Both the position numbers and the translations under genes were made by a program. From assembly GCA_937138295.1 (NCBI GenBank), contig CAKZOX010000216.1, positions 1 to 64,000 on the forward strand: a stretch of DNA of 64,000 nt, given 5' to 3'. Below are positions 35,851 to 44,720 of the stretch, piece by piece. The notes beneath the pieces are model-generated. The model was not told the origin of the DNA, made no database searches, and saw nothing but the letters and a program-made list of their open reading frames with translations. This DNA comes from an uncultured Campylobacteraceae bacterium. Lineage in GTDB: Bacteria; Campylobacterota; Campylobacteria; Campylobacterales; Arcobacteraceae. Position 1 is the stretch's first letter, and each line of letters starts with the position of its first letter.

Positions 35851-36378
35851 ATGAATATTGACATTAATAAACTACTTGAAGAATTAGGGGAAACATCTAC
35901 ATACTCTTTGTTAAATAAGTTTTTAATTACCTATGAAGACTATAAAAATCATCTAAAAATTGATAATGAAGACTTAGATAAATATATTCATAAACTGAAG
36001 GGATCTTCAGGAAATTTGAAAATTAACTCAGTACATGAACTATGTATAGATTTTCCAAAAAATGAAAATAAATCAGAAGTTTTAGATAACTTAATTAAAA
36101 AAATAGAAGATTCTTTTTTAGAAATAAAAACAATTTTAAAAGATGAAAAAACAAATAATGAAAAACTAGATCCTAATAAAATTGGAAATGCCTTAGATGA
36201 ATTAATTTCTGATTTAAATGAATTTAATTATATTGAAGATTCTAGAGTAAAAGTTATTCTAAACTCTTTAGATGGAATAATTAGCAATAAAATAATTGAT
36301 AATTTAGAAAAAGAGTTTGCAAATGGCAATTATGAAAAATCTACCATATTATGCCAAACAATAAGAAGTTTAATTTAA
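35851..36378 (+). CDS. Stand-alone HPt phosphotransfer protein
   Basis: The N-terminal half of this 175-residue protein is an HPt domain with the phosphorylatable His47 in YIHKLKGSSGNLKI, matching HxLKGxSGN. The C-terminal half (about 105-175) has the LDELISDLNEF and EFANGNYEKS pattern of the small helical unit that often trails HPt domains in hybrid kinases. It therefore looks like the detached tail of a hybrid kinase. It directly follows the REC-kinase and faces a receiver gene with a nine-base overlap, so the three may form one relay. Confidence 0.82.
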   Translation: MNIDINKLLEELGETSTYSLLNKFLITYEDYKNHLKIDNEDLDKYIHKLKGSSGNLKINSVHELCIDFPKNENKSEVLDNLIKKIEDSFLEIKTILKDEKTNNEKLDPNKIGNALDELISDLNEFNYIEDSRVKVILNSLDGIISNKIIDNLEKEFANGNYEKSTILCQTIRSLI

Positions 36379-37002
36379 AAACTTCTTTACATTGTCTATC
36401 AAGGTTTTTTGTTTATTTAACTTATTTTTCATATCTTTAAGTTTCTTGTCAAAAATTTGAGTATTTTGTATATTTTCATAAATTTTTTCAGAATTTTCTT
36501 TGAATTTACTTTCATTTTTTTGATAATCTTCTTCTGATAATTTTAATATCTTATTATTTTCTATTTCATTTGATAAATCTATCAACTGCTGATTTAGTTC
36601 TTTATAATCATAATATATTTTTTTCTGATATTCACTAACATAAAGTCTTCTTTTAATTCTAATAGAAAGCTCTTTTAAATTAATAGGTTTAATTATGTAA
36701 TCATCAACACCTAAATTAAAAAGTTTTTCAATATAATCAGTTTCATCATGTTGAGAAATTATAATTATTGGTGTAAATTCAAACTTTTTGTTACTTTTTA
36801 TAATTTTAGATAACTCTATACCATCTCCATCATCAAGAGAAATATCTATTATGAAAATATCGAAATCTTTTTTGTCATAGATTTCAATTGCTTTGTTATA
36901 ACTTGATACAACACTTACATCATAATCTTTATTAAAATAATCACCTAATAAAGTTAAAGTAGTTTGGTCATCATCTACAACTAATATTTTATCTTTTATC
37001 AT
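36370..37002 (-). CDS. Receiver with C-terminal coiled coil
   Basis: I place the start at 37002, where ATG begins the receiver (MIKDKILVVDDD); upstream in-frame codons to 37182 would run into argG and code for an unlikely sequence. The 210-residue product has an intact receiver (VVDDD, acceptor in IIDISLDD, Lys in IIKPINL) and then about 85 residues of lysine- and glutamine-rich coiled coil with no known output. Its end overlaps the HPt gene on the other strand by nine bases. It may receive phosphate from that HPt protein and signal by protein contact. Confidence 0.82.
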   Translation of the reverse strand: MIKDKILVVDDDQTTLTLLGDYFNKDYDVSVVSSYNKAIEIYDKKDFDIFIIDISLDDGDGIELSKIIKSNKKFEFTPIIIISQHDETDYIEKLFNLGVDDYIIKPINLKELSIRIKRRLYVSEYQKKIYYDYKELNQQLIDLSNEIENNKILKLSEEDYQKNESKFKENSEKIYENIQNTQIFDKKLKDMKNKLNKQKTLIDNVKKFLN

Positions 37003-37075
37003 TTTGTTCTTTGTACTTAAAAATTTTATTTGATTATAGCTTATATGCTTAAATAAAACAATAGTTAATATAGGA

Positions 37076-37081
37076 TATAAT
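37076..37081 (+). promoter_or_regulatory. Candidate -10 box for argG
   Basis: A perfect TATAAT lies 36 bases before the argG ATG in the 115-base divergent gap. No ARG-box-like palindrome could be recognised around it. Confidence 0.4.
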
Positions 37082-37117
37082 TTCGAAAATTTTAACTTTC
37101 TACAATAGGATTTATTT

Positions 37118-38353
37118 ATGGCTAAAAAAGATATTAAAAAAGTAGTATTAGCATATAGTGGTGGACTTGATACATCTATCATCTTAAAATGGCTTCAAGA
37201 CGAATACAATGCTGAAGTAATTACATTTACAGCAGATTTAGGACAAGGTGAAGAAGTTGAGCCTGCTAGAAAAAAAGCAATTGATTGTGGTATCAAACCA
37301 GAAAATGTATATATTTTAGATATTAAAGAAGAATTTGTTAAAGATTATGTATTCCCAATGTTTAGAGCAAATGCAATCTACGAGGGTGAATACTTATTAG
37401 GTACATCTATTGCTAGACCGTTAATTGCAAAAAAATTAATTGAAATTGCAAATGAAAATGGAGCAGAAGCTGTTTCTCATGGTGCAACAGGAAAAGGAAA
37501 TGACCAAGTTAGATTTGAAATTGGTGCATTAGCTTTAAGACCTGATATTCAAGTAATTGCTCCTTGGAGAGAGTGGGACTTAAACTCAAGAGAAAAGTTA
37601 TTATCTTATGCAAAAGAACATGGAATTGAAATTTCTCAAAAACATATTGATGCTGATGGTAACCCTACAGTTAGTCCATATTCAATGGATGCAAACCTTT
37701 TACATATCTCTTATGAAGGTTTACATTTAGAAAATCCAAACAATGAACCAGAAGATTCAATGTGGTTATGGACAAACTCACCAGAACAAGCCCCTGATAC
37801 AGCTGAATACATTACTATTGAATATAAAAATGGTGATCCTGTTTCAATTAATGGTGAAAAAATGTCTCCTGCAACTTTACTTGAAAACTTAAATAAATTA
37901 GGAAACAAACACGGTATTGGAAGAATTGATATTGTAGAAAATAGATATGTTGGGATGAAAGCTAGAGGTTGTTATGAAACTCCAGGTGGAACAATCATGT
38001 TAAAAGCTCATAGAGCAATTGAATCAATTTGTTTAGATAGAGAAGAAGCTCACTTAAAAGATGAATTAATGCCTAAATATGCTAAGTTAATTTATCAAGG
38101 ATACTGGTTCAGTCCTGAAAGAGAAATGCTACAAGCAGCAATTGATAAAACTCAAGAAAATGTAGAAGGTACAGTAAAATTAAAACTTTACAAAGGTAAT
38201 GTAATGGTAGTAGGAAGAGAATCTGAAAAATCATTATACTCAGAAGAGCATTCTACATTTGAAGAAGATGAAGTTTATAATCAAAAAGATGCAGAAGGAT
38301 TTATTAGATTAAATGCTTTAAGATTTATTATTGCAGGTAAAAAAAGAAATTAA
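37118..38353 (+). CDS. argG: Argininosuccinate synthase
   Basis: The 411-residue enzyme condenses citrulline and aspartate with ATP. The P-loop-like [16 protein letters not shown] is at about residues 11-26, followed by [22 protein letters not shown] and [17 protein letters not shown]. The length is normal. It is a single gene with its own candidate promoter and a strong terminator. Confidence 0.98.
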
Positions 38354-38380: not shown

Positions 38381-38420
38381 AAAAAAGCAAAAGGATTGAT
38401 TCCTTTTGCTTTTTTTTTAC
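38381..38420 (+). terminator. Rho-independent terminator after argG
   Basis: The stem AAAAAAGCAAAAGGA (38381-38395) pairs with its complement from 38401, with loop TTGAT, followed by an unbroken run of T on the plus strand. This is the clearest intrinsic terminator in the window and separates argG from the peptidase/ATP-grasp unit. Confidence 0.85.
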
Positions 38421-38510: not shown

Positions 38511-38519
38511 TGATATAAT
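38511..38519 (+). promoter_or_regulatory. Extended -10 promoter for the peptidase/ATP-grasp unit
   Basis: TGATATAAT is a TGn extended -10 element. It lies 32 bases before the M20 peptidase ATG and downstream of the argG terminator, so it is the likely single promoter for 38552-44707. Confidence 0.5.
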
Positions 38520-38551: not shown

Positions 38552-39655
38552 ATGACTTATTTTAAAGATTTAGAAAAAATAATCAACATCAACTCATATT
38601 CAAAAAATAAAGCAGGTGTAGATAAAGTTTCAGAACTTATGACAACTTGGTTAAACCAACTAGGTTATGAAAATGTTGTCTACAAAAGAGAATTAATAGG
38701 TGATCATAATCTTTATTCATCAAAAAAAACTCAAGGTGTTAAAATACTTTTAATTGGCCACAACGATACAGTCTTTCCAGAAAATACATTTGAAAATTTT
38801 AGTGAAGATGAAGAGTGGATTTATGGACCAGGTGTTTGTGATATGAAAGGTGGAAATATTGTAGCCCTACAATCCCTTAGAAACCTTAAAGATATTTACG
38901 GTGAAATTTTAAATATCGATGTACTTTTAGTATCTGATGAAGAAATAGGAAGTGAAGATTCAAGTTGCGTTTTAAAAGAAATCTCATCTAACTATGATAT
39001 ATGTATCGATTTTGAAGCAGCTGGTGAAAAAGATGAAATTGTAGTAGGTAGAAAAGGTGTAGGAACTTTTACTCTTATAATTCATGGAAAAGCAGCACAC
39101 GCTGGTAATAAATATCAAGAAGGAATTAATGCAAATCTTGAAGGTGCTTATAAATTACAAGAATTAGTAAAACTTACAAATCTTGAAAAAGGTTCTACAG
39201 TTAATCCTGGGAAAATCCTTGGTGGAATTGGTGCAAATACAATATCTCCAAAGTGTGAAATAACTGTAGAAATTAGATATACAAATCATGAAGAAAAACA
39301 AAGACTTCTTGATGGATTAAATAAAATAGTAAATACTTCATACGTAAAAGGTACAACCTGTGAACTAAATGGAAAAATTCAAAGAGATGTTATGGAAGAA
39401 AACAAAGAGCAACTCGAATTAATCGAACTTTTTGAAAATATAACTAACTCTAAAATTCTTACTGAAAAAAGAGGTGGAGTTAGTGATGCTAACATAATAT
39501 CTAACTGTGGAGTAATAACATTAGATGGGTTTGGACCATATGGTGACGGTGATCATACAATTCATGAAAGAGCATTGAAATCCTCTTTTGAAAAAAGAAT
39601 TGAAATGACAACTAAAATTTTATCTTATTATATGAATCAACTAAAAGGAAACTAA
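38552..39655 (+). CDS. M20 family metallopeptidase (carboxypeptidase G2/ArgE-like)
   Basis: The 367-residue cytosolic enzyme has the M20 metal ligands in order: HND (His70/Asp72 in LLIGHNDTVFP), bridging Asp97 (GVCDMKGG), catalytic Glu130-Glu131 (SDEEIGSED), and a late His in DGDHTIHERAL. A dimerisation insert is present with IHGKAAHAGNKYQEGINAN. The pattern fits glutamate carboxypeptidase-type or deacylase-type M20 enzymes that cleave a peptide or amide bond next to a free carboxylate. It is the first gene of a four-gene unit with two ATP-grasp ligases and an M14 peptidase; the substrate is likely the product or precursor of those ligases (inference). Confidence 0.88.
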   Translation: MTYFKDLEKIININSYSKNKAGVDKVSELMTTWLNQLGYENVVYKRELIGDHNLYSSKKTQGVKILLIGHNDTVFPENTFENFSEDEEWIYGPGVCDMKGGNIVALQSLRNLKDIYGEILNIDVLLVSDEEIGSEDSSCVLKEISSNYDICIDFEAAGEKDEIVVGRKGVGTFTLIIHGKAAHAGNKYQEGINANLEGAYKLQELVKLTNLEKGSTVNPGKILGGIGANTISPKCEITVEIRYTNHEEKQRLLDGLNKIVNTSYVKGTTCELNGKIQRDVMEENKEQLELIELFENITNSKILTEKRGGVSDANIISNCGVITLDGFGPYGDGDHTIHERALKSSFEKRIEMTTKILSYYMNQLKGN

Positions 39656-39656
39656 T

Positions 39657-40628
39657 ATGTCAAATAGAAAAATAGGAATGTGGCTTTACCAAAATGGTGG
39701 TGGTGATGTTATTCAAGAAAAAATGATTAATAAACTTAAAGAAAGAGGAATAGACACAATTCCAAATTTGAATTTAAGATATGCTGTGGCAAAAAATGGA
39801 CATATTATTTGCGATAGAAAAGAAGAAAGTAAATTTAAATTAGACAAATTAGATCTATTCTTTTCATATAATGCAGGGGAACAAACTCAATACCAAATGT
39901 ATTTGTACAAAGCATTAAATAGAGTAATTCCTATGATTAATTCCTATGAAGCTTTTGAACTAACTGAAGATAAATTCCATACTTCATTTGTATTAAGAAC
40001 AAATGGAATACAAACAGCTGATTATAAACTTTGCCATAGAGATGACTCATATCATCTTAATAAGATTATTAAAAAATGGGATAGAATGGTTTATAAACCA
40101 ACTGATGGTTGGGGTGGAGTTGGTCTTACTAAAATTGAAAATCAAGAGACTCTTGATATGTTAATGCCTTTTTTAAATCAAATGGACTTAAGATATTTTT
40201 ACGTTGAGAAATTTATAGATTATGATAATACTGATTTTAGAATTGATATAGTTGATGGTCAATTTGTTGGTGGATATGGTAGAAAAGCAGGTGGAAGCGA
40301 CTGGAGAACAAACGTTACAAGTGGTGGAAGTGTATTTGCTAGAGATATTCCAGATGAAGTAATCCAAATAGCACTAAAAGCAGCTAAAGTTACAGAATTA
40401 GATATTGCAGGTGTTGATATTATATATGATAGAAAAAAAGAAGAATATGTAGTATTAGAAGTTAATGGAATACCTGCATTTATAACTCCAGAACAAGAAA
40501 AAATAGGTATAGACTACAATGATAAAAAAATAGATTTAATTGTAGATTTAATAGATAGAAAAACAACAAAACTAAAAAAAAACACTAACAACATAACAAA
40601 AAGGAATAAACTTGAAAAAACTGCCTAA
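39657..40628 (+). CDS. RimK-like ATP-grasp ligase
   Basis: The 323-residue protein has a divergent N-terminal domain (about 1-115) and a RimK-like ATP-grasp domain: Lys147 in VYKPTDGWGGVGL, the hinge FYVEKFID, the substrate loop RTNVTSGGS (about 207-215) and the metal ligands Asp254, Glu268 and Asn270 in GVDII and VLEVNGIPAF. All key residues are present, so it should form acyl phosphates and then an amide or peptide bond. Family members glutamylate proteins or build small peptides; its substrates are unknown. It begins one base after the M20 stop and overlaps the next ATP-grasp gene by 17 bases. Confidence 0.85.
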   Translation: MSNRKIGMWLYQNGGGDVIQEKMINKLKERGIDTIPNLNLRYAVAKNGHIICDRKEESKFKLDKLDLFFSYNAGEQTQYQMYLYKALNRVIPMINSYEAFELTEDKFHTSFVLRTNGIQTADYKLCHRDDSYHLNKIIKKWDRMVYKPTDGWGGVGLTKIENQETLDMLMPFLNQMDLRYFYVEKFIDYDNTDFRIDIVDGQFVGGYGRKAGGSDWRTNVTSGGSVFARDIPDEVIQIALKAAKVTELDIAGVDIIYDRKKEEYVVLEVNGIPAFITPEQEKIGIDYNDKKIDLIVDLIDRKTTKLKKNTNNITKRNKLEKTA

Positions 40629-42117
40629 ACTAGGACTATTATATTTAGATTACGTACTAAGATTCTTCGATAAATCAAACTTCAAAGGTTGGCCAGACAA
40701 AATTGAAACTGTTACTTATCATTGGAAAAATGATAAAGCTAGATTTATTAAAGAAGTTAAGAAAAAGAAAATTGATATCTTAATTGGAAATATTCCAGCT
40801 ACTGCATATGATACATTTGTAGAAATTGCAAAAGAGTTACCTCATGTAAGGTTTGTACCATCATTAGAGACTCAATTTTCAAATAAATCTAAAGAAAATG
40901 TTACATTATTTTGTGAGAAATATGGTATAGATATTCCTAAAACTAAAATTTTCTATGATAAAGAAAAAGGATATAAATATCTTAAAAACAAAGCAACTTA
41001 TCCTCAAATCATAAAAAGAAGTTATGGAGCATCTAACTATGGCGGTTATTATGTTCATAAAGCTGATAACTTTAAAGAAGCTAAAGAACTATTAGATGAT
41101 AAAAAGTATGTTCCTATTTACACTCAAGATGCAATTGACTTAAAATACTCAGGAGATTTAAGAGTTATGTTAATTGGACATAAACCAATTTGTGCCTTCT
41201 GGAGATTTTCAGGTGATGGTGAATGGATTACAAATACTTCTCAAGGTGGTTCAATGTCATATGAAAATGTTCCTATGAATGCATTAGAATTAGCTGTAAA
41301 AGCAAGTAAAGCCGCTAAAGCTGAATATTGGGCTTGTGATATTGCTATTGATGCAAAAACAGATAAACCATATATTTTAGAGTGTGCAACAGCATTTGCT
41401 GCATTCCCATATATTAGAGATTGGATTTGTCAATACTTAATGTGGGATTTCTCAAATGGAAGATTTAAAAAACCTCATGTTCCACTATTCTCATGGGAAG
41501 AATTAGGAAAAATTGATAGTTCATTATTAAGAACAATGAGACACATTGGATTTGGAAAATATACTCCTTCATGTGATGGAGAGTTTTATTTACCAACTGA
41601 TGATAGTAAATTTGATATGGAAAAAGCATTATTAAGTAATTCAAATGATGTTCCTGATTCTATAGCTCCTGTAATAGAAAAAGAAGAAAAAATAACTACA
41701 ATTAGTACTAAAAAAAGTTCTGATTATGAAGTTTCAAAGATAAATTTAAATACAGCTACTCTAACAGACCTTATGTCATTACATGGTATGGAAGAAGAAC
41801 TTGCATTAGAAATTCAAGAATTATGTGAAGATTTAATTATTACAGATGCATCTGATTTATTAGAAATAGAATCAATTGAAGAACAACTTTTAGAGACTTG
41901 GCATGAAAATATTGATGACATGAGAGTTGATATTAATCAAGCAGATAAGACTACATTAAAAAAAATTAAAGGTATAGGTGCTAAACTTGCAAAAATCATT
42001 TTAGACTACAAAGAATCTATTGGAAAGTTCACATCAATTGATGAACTAAAAGAAATAGATGGTGTAGGAAAAAATAAATTTACACAATTAAAGTCTAGAC
42101 TAAAAATAGGAGAATAA
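40612..42117 (+). CDS. ATP-grasp protein fused to ComEA-like helix-hairpin-helix repeats
   Basis: The 501-residue protein starts with TTG after AAAAGGA. Residues about 90-275 form a divergent ATP-grasp domain (QIIKRSYGASNYGGYYV, SGDLRVM, EWITNTSQGGS, CDIAIDAK) in which the usual L-E-x-N metal motif reads LECAT (256-260), so the Asn ligand is replaced. Residues 377-430 and 439-499 are two helix-hairpin-helix units; the second, with VDINQADKTTLKKIKGIGAK and ELKEIDGVGKNKFTQLK, closely resembles ComEA. HhH modules usually bind DNA. Fusion to an ATP-grasp ligase is unusual to me. The function may be scaffolding, DNA association or a ligase with altered metal use. Confidence 0.82.
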   Translation: MKKLPKLGLLYLDYVLRFFDKSNFKGWPDKIETVTYHWKNDKARFIKEVKKKKIDILIGNIPATAYDTFVEIAKELPHVRFVPSLETQFSNKSKENVTLFCEKYGIDIPKTKIFYDKEKGYKYLKNKATYPQIIKRSYGASNYGGYYVHKADNFKEAKELLDDKKYVPIYTQDAIDLKYSGDLRVMLIGHKPICAFWRFSGDGEWITNTSQGGSMSYENVPMNALELAVKASKAAKAEYWACDIAIDAKTDKPYILECATAFAAFPYIRDWICQYLMWDFSNGRFKKPHVPLFSWEELGKIDSSLLRTMRHIGFGKYTPSCDGEFYLPTDDSKFDMEKALLSNSNDVPDSIAPVIEKEEKITTISTKKSSDYEVSKINLNTATLTDLMSLHGMEEELALEIQELCEDLIITDASDLLEIESIEEQLLETWHENIDDMRVDINQADKTTLKKIKGIGAKLAKIILDYKESIGKFTSIDELKEIDGVGKNKFTQLKSRLKIGE

Positions 42118-42121
42118 TTTT

Positions 42122-44707
42122 TTGAAACAACTCTATAAAACATATGGTGAATCAACTGAAATTTTCAAAGAATTAGAAAAAAAATATCCCAAATATTTCA
42201 AAATGAAATCAATTGGAAAGACTTGGGAAAAAAGGGATATTAATCTTTTAATTATCTCTAAAGATATTAAAACCCATGAAGAAAGACCTGCACTATTTTA
42301 TACAGGTACTATTCATGCTAGAGAATGGGTTGGACATGAATTAGCTATTGAGTTTGCAAATTATATTTTAAACAATTTAGACCATGATCCAGCTATTCAA
42401 AATTATATTGAAAATGCTACAATTTATATGGTTCCGTGTGCTAACCCAGATGGATTTGAATATTCACAAAAACATTTTAGTTTTTGGAGAAAAAATAGAA
42501 GACAAAATGCTGATGGTTCTTATGGTGTTGATTTAAATAGAAACTTTCCAATAGGATATGTAAAATCAACTGCAACAACTTCAAATGTTTATGGTGGACC
42601 TGAACCTTTTAGTGAACCTGAAACAAGGGTATTAAGAGATTTTGTTGAAGCACATGAAAATATATCTATAGCACTTGACTATCACTCTCAAGGAAATGTA
42701 TTTTTCCCAGCCCATGACTTTAGACATGAAGATACTATTGATACAACGGATATGAATACTTTATGTGCAAATATGGCTGAAGAAATTAGAAAAATTTCTG
42801 ATAGGGAATATGGAATTCACCAAGGAAAACCACCTACAAAACTAATTTCTGGAAGTGGTAGAGAATTTTATTATTCAAAAGGAATTATTTCTACAGTTGT
42901 AGAGGTAGGAACTAGAAATATTAGTGATTATTTAGATGATATGAATGAACATGTAAGAGAACATATCCCTGCTTTACTTCATGCTGTAAAAGAAGTTCCA
43001 AATTATGATAGGAAAAATGGTTTAAGTAGAATTAAATCTTTTGAAATAACTGAAATCGGTTCAAATCATGCAAATTTAGTTTGGGAATATGAACAAAACA
43101 ATGATATTTTCTTTGAAATCTATAGAAGTACAAAAAACAAATCATTTTGTAATGCATCAAATTTAGTAGCTAGAACTCAAAGTTTAGAATTTAGTGATAT
43201 AAATCTAAACAGCAACAAAGATTACTACTATAATATTAGAGCAGTAAACAAAAAGACTAATATAAAATCACCTTTTTACCCTCAAATAATATTAAGAACA
43301 GACCCTGAATACGATGAATTTAGTAGAACATATTACGCAACATCAAAGGGAACTGGTTATGTTGCTGAAAATTATACAAACAATAAAAAACATTTTGGTG
43401 TGAATTCTTTATTTGTTGGAGTAGATTTAAACAAAGGTGTATCTTACGCAATTGTAACTATGAGTTTTAACACTTTACCTAGTAATGCTCAAATTAAACA
43501 TGCTTCATTTCATTTATATCCTATAAATAGAGTTTCAACTACCATAGAAAAATATGGTGAATGGAATGTTGGAATTGTAAATCAAGAAACTATGGGAGAT
43601 ATTACTAACTTTGATGATGTAGATAACATGGAAATCTTACAATATGTAGGAAGACCAACTTCATCTGATAAATTAACACAAGGTATTTGGAGAACTTGGG
43701 AGTTTTCAGGTAAAGAGTGTGAAACACTACAAAAAGTTGCTGCAAATAATAAAGTTGTATTTAGAATTGAAGGTCCAAAAGACTTAATAATAGGTAGAAC
43801 TAGACAAATGATGCAATGGGATATAGGATATGGTAAATTTGGTTATGGCTTACCTTACAGACCTAGACTTGAATTAACTTATACGTTAAAACCAACTATA
43901 AGTACTATTTATCCTAAAGCTGTTTATACAGTAACTAAAGATGAAGTAATAAATAATGAAATTACAGCAGGATTTGATGCTGATGGAAATAAAATATATT
44001 CAACTTTTGAATTTAATATTTCATCACTACCACCTTATGATGAAACTATTATTACTAATGCTTATTTTGAATTAAACTCTACAAAAATCTATATTAAAGA
44101 TGATATTAGATTTCATCTTGAATTTGTTGATGAAAACATTGATAAAGATTATGAAAAAATTAAAAATAGAGATGTAATTCATAATATTGGTTATGATGTT
44201 AGTGCTACAGAGTTAAAAAATAATCAAACTCAATACTTTACTTTTGATAGTTATGCTGGTATTACATTAAATGAAAAATTAGAAGATAAATCTGATATTT
44301 CATTTGTTTTAAGCCCTACTTCATCAAAAAAAGCCATAAAAGATAAAAGTATTTCTTGGGAAATGAAAAATCAATCATTAAGTCCAAAACTTATAATTGA
44401 ACATATTCCAAAAAGAAGAAAACCTTTACCACAAGTTACTAATGCAAACTTAACCTTAGAAAATGGGAAAATTAAATTAACATGGACAAATCCTATTCAT
44501 GATGATTTAAAAGGTGTAAAAGTAATTAAAAATGCATATAGAGAGCCCTATTCTACTCACGATGGACAGAAACTTTATGCGGGAATGGATGAATACACAT
44601 TTGATGATTTTGGAGCATTAGATGTGGATAAATACTTTGCAATATTTACTTATGATGAAGTTCCTAATTATTCTAAACCAATAATAATAAAATATGAAGC
44701 GAAATAG
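42122..44707 (+). CDS. M14 zinc carboxypeptidase with FN3-like and DNRLRE-like modules
   Basis: The 861-residue protein starts with TTG (GGAG upstream) directly in the M14 domain, without signal peptide. Zinc ligands are His65 and Glu68 (TIHAREW) and His188 (LDYHSQGN); DLNRNFPIG holds the substrate-binding Asn-Arg, and the general base is Glu261 (VVEVGTRN). After about residue 300 come an FN3-like domain (about 305-395), two roughly 170-residue beta-rich units resembling DNRLRE modules (about 400-590 and 595-765), and a final FN3-like domain. These modules are typical of exported proteins, which conflicts with the missing signal. It is the last gene of the ATP-grasp unit and is followed by a hairpin. 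Confidence 0.85.
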   Translation: MKQLYKTYGESTEIFKELEKKYPKYFKMKSIGKTWEKRDINLLIISKDIKTHEERPALFYTGTIHAREWVGHELAIEFANYILNNLDHDPAIQNYIENATIYMVPCANPDGFEYSQKHFSFWRKNRRQNADGSYGVDLNRNFPIGYVKSTATTSNVYGGPEPFSEPETRVLRDFVEAHENISIALDYHSQGNVFFPAHDFRHEDTIDTTDMNTLCANMAEEIRKISDREYGIHQGKPPTKLISGSGREFYYSKGIISTVVEVGTRNISDYLDDMNEHVREHIPALLHAVKEVPNYDRKNGLSRIKSFEITEIGSNHANLVWEYEQNNDIFFEIYRSTKNKSFCNASNLVARTQSLEFSDINLNSNKDYYYNIRAVNKKTNIKSPFYPQIILRTDPEYDEFSRTYYATSKGTGYVAENYTNNKKHFGVNSLFVGVDLNKGVSYAIVTMSFNTLPSNAQIKHASFHLYPINRVSTTIEKYGEWNVGIVNQETMGDITNFDDVDNMEILQYVGRPTSSDKLTQGIWRTWEFSGKECETLQKVAANNKVVFRIEGPKDLIIGRTRQMMQWDIGYGKFGYGLPYRPRLELTYTLKPTISTIYPKAVYTVTKDEVINNEITAGFDADGNKIYSTFEFNISSLPPYDETIITNAYFELNSTKIYIKDDIRFHLEFVDENIDKDYEKIKNRDVIHNIGYDVSATELKNNQTQYFTFDSYAGITLNEKLEDKSDISFVLSPTSSKKAIKDKSISWEMKNQSLSPKLIIEHIPKRRKPLPQVTNANLTLENGKIKLTWTNPIHDDLKGVKVIKNAYREPYSTHDGQKLYAGMDEYTFDDFGALDVDKYFAIFTYDEVPNYSKPIIIKYEAK

Positions 44708-44720
44708 AAATATTTCGCTT
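44697..44720 (+). terminator. Hairpin terminator after the M14 gene
   Basis: A perfect ten-base stem (AAGCGAAATA at 44697-44706 and its complement at 44711-44720) with a stable GAAA tetraloop overlaps the M14 stop codon. It marks the end of the 38.5-44.7 kb unit, although no long T-run follows. Confidence 0.6.

Follow-up and report, generated by a model that had tools for sequence, protein, structure and literature searches.

A conserved unit of two ATP-grasp proteins and two peptidases in Campylobacterota, a candidate cycle for adding and removing acidic amino acids

Background

Two peptidase genes and two ATP-grasp genes stand in one row (38552-44707, forward strand) in the DNA analysed here, a 64,000-nucleotide contig segment from an uncultured member of the Arcobacteraceae that is called the window below. 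Such a combination raises the question of whether the four proteins serve a single pathway and, if so, what that pathway attaches and takes off again. To our knowledge, few reversible amino-acid conjugation systems have been recognized in bacteria, and no bacterial conjugation system in which both erasers are zinc carboxypeptidases was found in open papers. The unit has the look of a system, so far undescribed, for reversible tagging or for making peptides. It is compact, it yields a sharp prediction of C-terminal Glu/Asp specificity that can be checked with purified proteins, and its cultured carriers Poseidonibacter and Malaciobacter make it accessible.

Organization of the gene unit

The first gene encodes a metallopeptidase of family M20 that resembles carboxypeptidase G2 (38552-39655; Pfam PF01546/PF07687, Peptidase_M20 and M20_dimer). 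It is followed by AG1, read as a RimK/MptN-type ATP-grasp ligase (39657-40628; PF08443, E = 2e-23), and by AG2H, an ATP-grasp protein with a helix-hairpin-helix (HhH) tail that matches RimK and two HHH_3 stretches (40612-42117). The last gene encodes an M14 carboxypeptidase (42122-44707; PF00246, Peptidase_M14, E = 2.5e-61). M20 ends 1 base short of AG1, AG1 overlaps AG2H by 17 bases, and 4 bases separate AG2H from M14. AG2H and M14 have TTG start codons, which match where homologues begin. The ORFs and their spacing are exactly those given in a preliminary description of this DNA, and the Pfam profiles agree with the four families that it had assigned.

The window unit is flanked by argG upstream and by a hexapeptide-repeat gene, which we take to be gamma-carbonic-anhydrase-like. 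A terminator-like hairpin with a T run, picked out by eye, lies between argG and the unit (38387-38418, +), and a terminator-like inverted repeat spans the M14 stop codon (44697-44720, strand not assigned), so that hairpins are seen on both sides as first described. The extended -10 element proposed in front of the unit, TGATATAAT (38511-38519, +), can also be read in the sequence as a candidate promoter. A promoter scan of the region lent it no support beyond chance, with 44 promoter-like sites against 45.5 in shuffled sequence, and the call therefore draws only on the TG extension and the position.

Conservation across genomes

When 84,980 species genomes were scanned, 346 relatives of AG2H came up, and the 80 most similar of these were used for neighbourhood analysis. 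All four genes lie side by side in 62 of these 80 loci, and the complete set is present in 56 of the 62 loci whose contig has room for it. This recurrence is far above chance. The unit thus survived the possibility, raised at the outset, that its genes are not kept together elsewhere. In a class-wide sample, all four genes were found in neighbourhoods of seven other Campylobacterota genomes, and a Photobacterium chromid from a plasmid collection also has the whole set, which makes eight loci. The M20 gene is reversed and divergent in five of these eight.

Most carriers are marine and vent Campylobacterota; Desulfuromusa, Thiomicrorhabdus and a Desulfuromonadales bin are also among them. This habitat trend is read from record names and has no control group. 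With the Desulfuromonadales, Thiomicrorhabdus and Photobacterium representatives, the block extends over several phyla. About one in seven sampled Campylobacteria genomes carries the unit. Among 397 such genomes, M14 is present in 54, AG2H in 53 and both in 52 (Fisher p ~1e-61, a statistic that ignores kinship), and the pattern is spread over 26 of 69 genera. The unit appears to be rare in Gammaproteobacteria, since only the query genome carries it in a sample of 369. No relative of the unit was found on viral contigs, where phages gave weak generic ATP-grasp matches only, and a virus-borne origin was rejected. A defence-island reading was likewise set aside because the four proteins match no PADLOC model.

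Exceptions to the standard arrangement are instructive. One genome (G009) keeps M20, AG1 and M14 together with AG2H 840 kb away, so that all four are still present; its AG2H is intact and stands alone between efp and dnaE (L024, 8000-9418). In another (G037), AG2H lies broken between the same two genes, decayed to about 100 amino acids (L025, 8171-8467), and AG1 has been lost with it. AG2H stands alone in four other genomes, and three of these carry an M14 as well. In the draft genome G388, M20, AG1 and M14 are present and AG2H was not found. In G263 the M14 gene is by itself between argG and the carbonic-anhydrase-like gene (L107, 11091-13673), 62% identical to the window copy, and this solitary copy is counted against the module reading.

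Across 39 loci, the four proteins agree in their pairwise distances (r 0.64-0.86), and none of 999 permutations reaches the observed values; shared species history contributes to this correlation. The four genes form a conserved, co-inherited module that is kept even when it is split. Second AG1 copies occur beside the cassette in two loci (L039, 14769-16132, with part of AG2H; L042, 6812-7729) and suggest local duplication.

At its site in Arcobacteraceae the unit is a present/absent insert between argG and the gamma-carbonic-anhydrase gene, and argG directly adjoins the carbonic-anhydrase-like gene in six of eight members of the family that lack the cassette. The upstream position of argG is limited to this family; elsewhere the unit is not beside it. 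A link to arginine biosynthesis through argG was rejected, because argG is also found where the unit is missing and the neighbours of the unit are different beyond Arcobacteraceae.

The two ATP-grasp proteins

Both ATP-grasp proteins clear the PF08443 cut-off of 21 bits (AG1, 83; AG2H, 61) and miss that of the NCBIfam RimK-family model TIGR00768 (143.4; AG1, 127.8; AG2H, 70.0). The top equivalog model for AG1 is MptN, a glutamate ligase, at 139.4 bits under a cut-off of 350. AG1 aligns to the RimK structure 5zct (E = 1.5e-19), and the Mg- and Glu-binding residues of RimK (DxR, D and ExN) are all present and invariant in 29 of 29 homologues. In RimK, R189 and N262, the Arg of DxR and the Asn of ExN, contact the last glutamate (PMC10092738), so the invariant pair in AG1 corresponds to the terminal-glutamate contacts. 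Judged by its sequence, AG1 is a RimK/MptN-type ligase with intact catalytic residues.

AG2H differs at one of these positions. Its ATP-grasp part (residues 1-330, 40612-41601; PF08443) is the best-conserved portion of the unit, and K135, D243 and E257, the other ATP/Mg residues, are invariant together with the DxR Arg. The ExN Asn is missing in 30 of 30 homologues, and the window protein has E-C-A there (codons 41380-41388). Without this Asn, AG2H may not be a working ligase. Its predicted structure matches RimK (4iwx) and ArgX (3vpb). The C-terminal HhH region contains two HHH_3 stretches (41749-42102; the best covers residues 438-497). Most AG2H members carry this tail, and its helices are present in the predicted structure.

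The two peptidases

The M14 equivalents of the zinc ligands H69, E72 and H196, and of R127, N144/R145 and E270, are invariant in 28 of 28 homologues. So is Arg247 (codon 42860-42862), which aligns with the specificity-determining residue 255 of carboxypeptidase A (CPA). In vertebrate M14 enzymes residue 255 sets specificity, with Arg255 selecting acidic C-termini and allowing hydrolysis of FA-Glu-Glu (PMC9925722). The invariant Arg marks the protein as a predicted C-terminal Glu/Asp carboxypeptidase, an assignment that is new here. The position-255 argument rests on CPA4 alignments, as a short M14 fragment compared with the PDB gave no useful alignment to carboxypeptidase O (CPO). Tyr248 of CPA has no conserved equivalent; the window protein has Lys240, counted from the alignment.

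The predicted M14 structure (pLDDT 85 overall) matches CPA4, CPA and CPO and is poor near the pocket, with pLDDT of about 50-60 at residues 231-250 and 261-270. An N-terminal catalytic domain is followed by a large beta-rich C-terminal region with fn3-like and DNRLRE-like matches. Model NF033679 is matched by 24 of 28 homologues, the window protein falling just under the cut-off. No signal peptide was seen on reading the M14 sequence, and the enzyme is probably cytosolic.

The best PDB match of the M20 protein is carboxypeptidase G2 (CPG2; 1cg2, profile E = 6e-43). The catalytic and carboxylate-binding residues of CPG2 are conserved in it: in the alignment, the metal and catalytic residues and R278, N229 and H183 (CPG2 R324, N275 and H229) are invariant in 31 of 31 sequences. 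Neither K208 nor S210 of the CPG2 Glu pocket is conserved, with E/N and V in their place, and glutamate specificity is therefore unproven for M20. No signal peptide was seen in this sequence either. Like AG1, both peptidases have intact catalytic residues.

Comparison with known systems

None of the curated NCBIfam specific-function models is matched over its cut-off by any of the four proteins. No paper on a RimK/M14/M20 operon was found in the open literature, although a 2009 survey of amidoligases by Iyer et al. may mention relatives. The view that no named pathway has exactly this set held up against both profile libraries and open papers.

The RimK-RimB(-RimA/AstE-like) system for polyglutamylation of S6 resembles the unit in that a RimK-type ATP-grasp ligase is encoded with an opposing peptidase, RimB counteracting RimK (PMC12239564). 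Its eraser is a retropepsin, whereas the erasers of the unit are M20 and M14 zinc enzymes with no retropepsin beside them, and the unit has two ATP-grasp proteins, one of them with HhH. The window genome encodes a RimB-like retropepsin, a RimK of 312 amino acids and an AstE/AspA-like gene in a separate operon (L001, contig C20, 14869-18435); the cassette is therefore not the Rim system.

Two ATP-grasp ligases also occur in methylofuran polyglutamylation, where MyfA and MyfB work one after the other (PMC8141765), and MptN is the best model for AG1. The unit differs from these systems in having no methylofuran or H4MPT genes, in its added peptidases and in scores far under the MptN cut-off. In eukaryotes, chains are started by some TTLLs, extended by others and removed by CCPs, one of which also takes off the branch residue (PMC9117372). 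This pairing of initiating and elongating ligases with M14 erasers is like the unit by analogy only, as the unit has other ligase and M14 branches, no tubulin and an extra M20 enzyme.

The M14 protein shares its catalytic fold, residues and the Arg at 255 with carboxypeptidase O and the A/B enzymes, and differs from them in its beta-rich C-terminal part, in the lack of conservation of Tyr248, and in that no signal peptide or prodomain was seen. The LysX/ArgX-LysW and NAGGN/NAAG pathways likewise combine an ATP-grasp ligase with a peptidase or deacylase. In contrast to NAGGN synthesis, the unit has no GNAT-ATP-grasp Ngg, no AsnO/amidotransferase and no M42 peptidase (TIGR03103, 26.6 against 569 bits).

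Proposed function and alternatives

RimK-type ATP-grasp enzymes form amides via acyl phosphates, and an alpha-carboxylate is the group to which MptN, MyfB and RimK attach glutamates. The best explanation of the unit is one cytosolic, ATP-driven cycle that would add and remove acidic amino acids, most likely glutamate. Amide bonds would be made to the carboxyl end of a putative acceptor or growing oligopeptide. AG2H would select the acceptor and make or assist the first bond, using its HhH tail as a docking part, and AG1, as an elongating ligase of the RimK/MptN/MyfB type, would extend the chain with Glu or Asp. M14, with its Arg at 255, would trim C-terminal acidic residues one by one, and the CPG2-like M20 may hydrolyse the remaining, last or differently linked amide. 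That the amino acid is glutamate, that an acceptor exists and how the four proteins share the work are inferred by homology; the unit itself encodes neither an acceptor nor a carrier protein.

As a write/erase module for acidic residues in general, this reading is in our judgement about evenly poised between right and wrong. The preliminary description had already proposed that linked ligases and peptidases add amino acids and take them off again, and this idea is well supported by neighbourhood, co-occurrence, co-divergence and active sites; the lack of the canonical catalytic Asn in AG2H is a caution, and the peptide conjugate first suggested is hypothetical.

A serious contender, if on balance an unlikely one, is a product that stays free instead of being attached to a macromolecule: a soluble acidic oligopeptide or an N-acyl-glutamate-type metabolite, later degraded by the peptidases and serving as an osmolyte, metal chelator or nitrogen store, as in NAGGN/NAAG metabolism. 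The enzymes appear to be soluble, the unit has no carrier protein, and free poly-alpha-glutamate is a product of both RimK and MyfB in vitro (PMC8141765; PMC12239564). The named cultured carriers that were noticed, Poseidonibacter, Malaciobacter halophilus, Thiomicrorhabdus and Photobacterium, are all marine or halophilic by name, but the habitat list lacks a control group. A salinity link was rejected when betaine/choline (BCCT) transporters, taken as a salt proxy, showed no clear association within the family (11/15 versus 13/28). The HhH tail and the beta-rich M14 extension also argue against a free product, in that they suggest docking to something large.

The write/erase reading can be narrowed to a two-writer, two-eraser polyglutamylation system, convergent with TTLL/CCP, that would reversibly tag a conserved macromolecule recognized via AG2H. 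We regard this version as doubtful. It is improbable, in turn, that AG2H is a non-catalytic partner in a one-writer, two-eraser system, with AG1 as the sole ligase and AG2H and its HhH tail targeting or activating it. The uniform absence of the ExN Asn and the decay of the AG2H fragment where AG1 is missing would fit such a role; the invariant K135, D243, E257 and DxR Arg and the high conservation of the core speak for catalysis.

A LysW/LysX/ArgX-like carrier or amino-acid biosynthesis route, with M20 as LysK and a tie to argG, is very improbable: AG1 and AG2H are similar to ArgX/LysX both in sequence and in fold, LysX and [LysW]-lysine hydrolase models are among the NCBIfam matches, and argG lies upstream in Arcobacteraceae, but the unit has no LysW, its gaps of 1 and 4 bases are too small for an ORF, carrier-pathway models score far under cut-off (LysX, 93.6 against 275.6), and unit and argG occur apart from each other.

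In the window, the start of argG (37118-38353, +) is overlapped by 65 bases by a response-regulator ORF on the opposite strand (36370-37182, -), which probably starts further downstream on its own strand.
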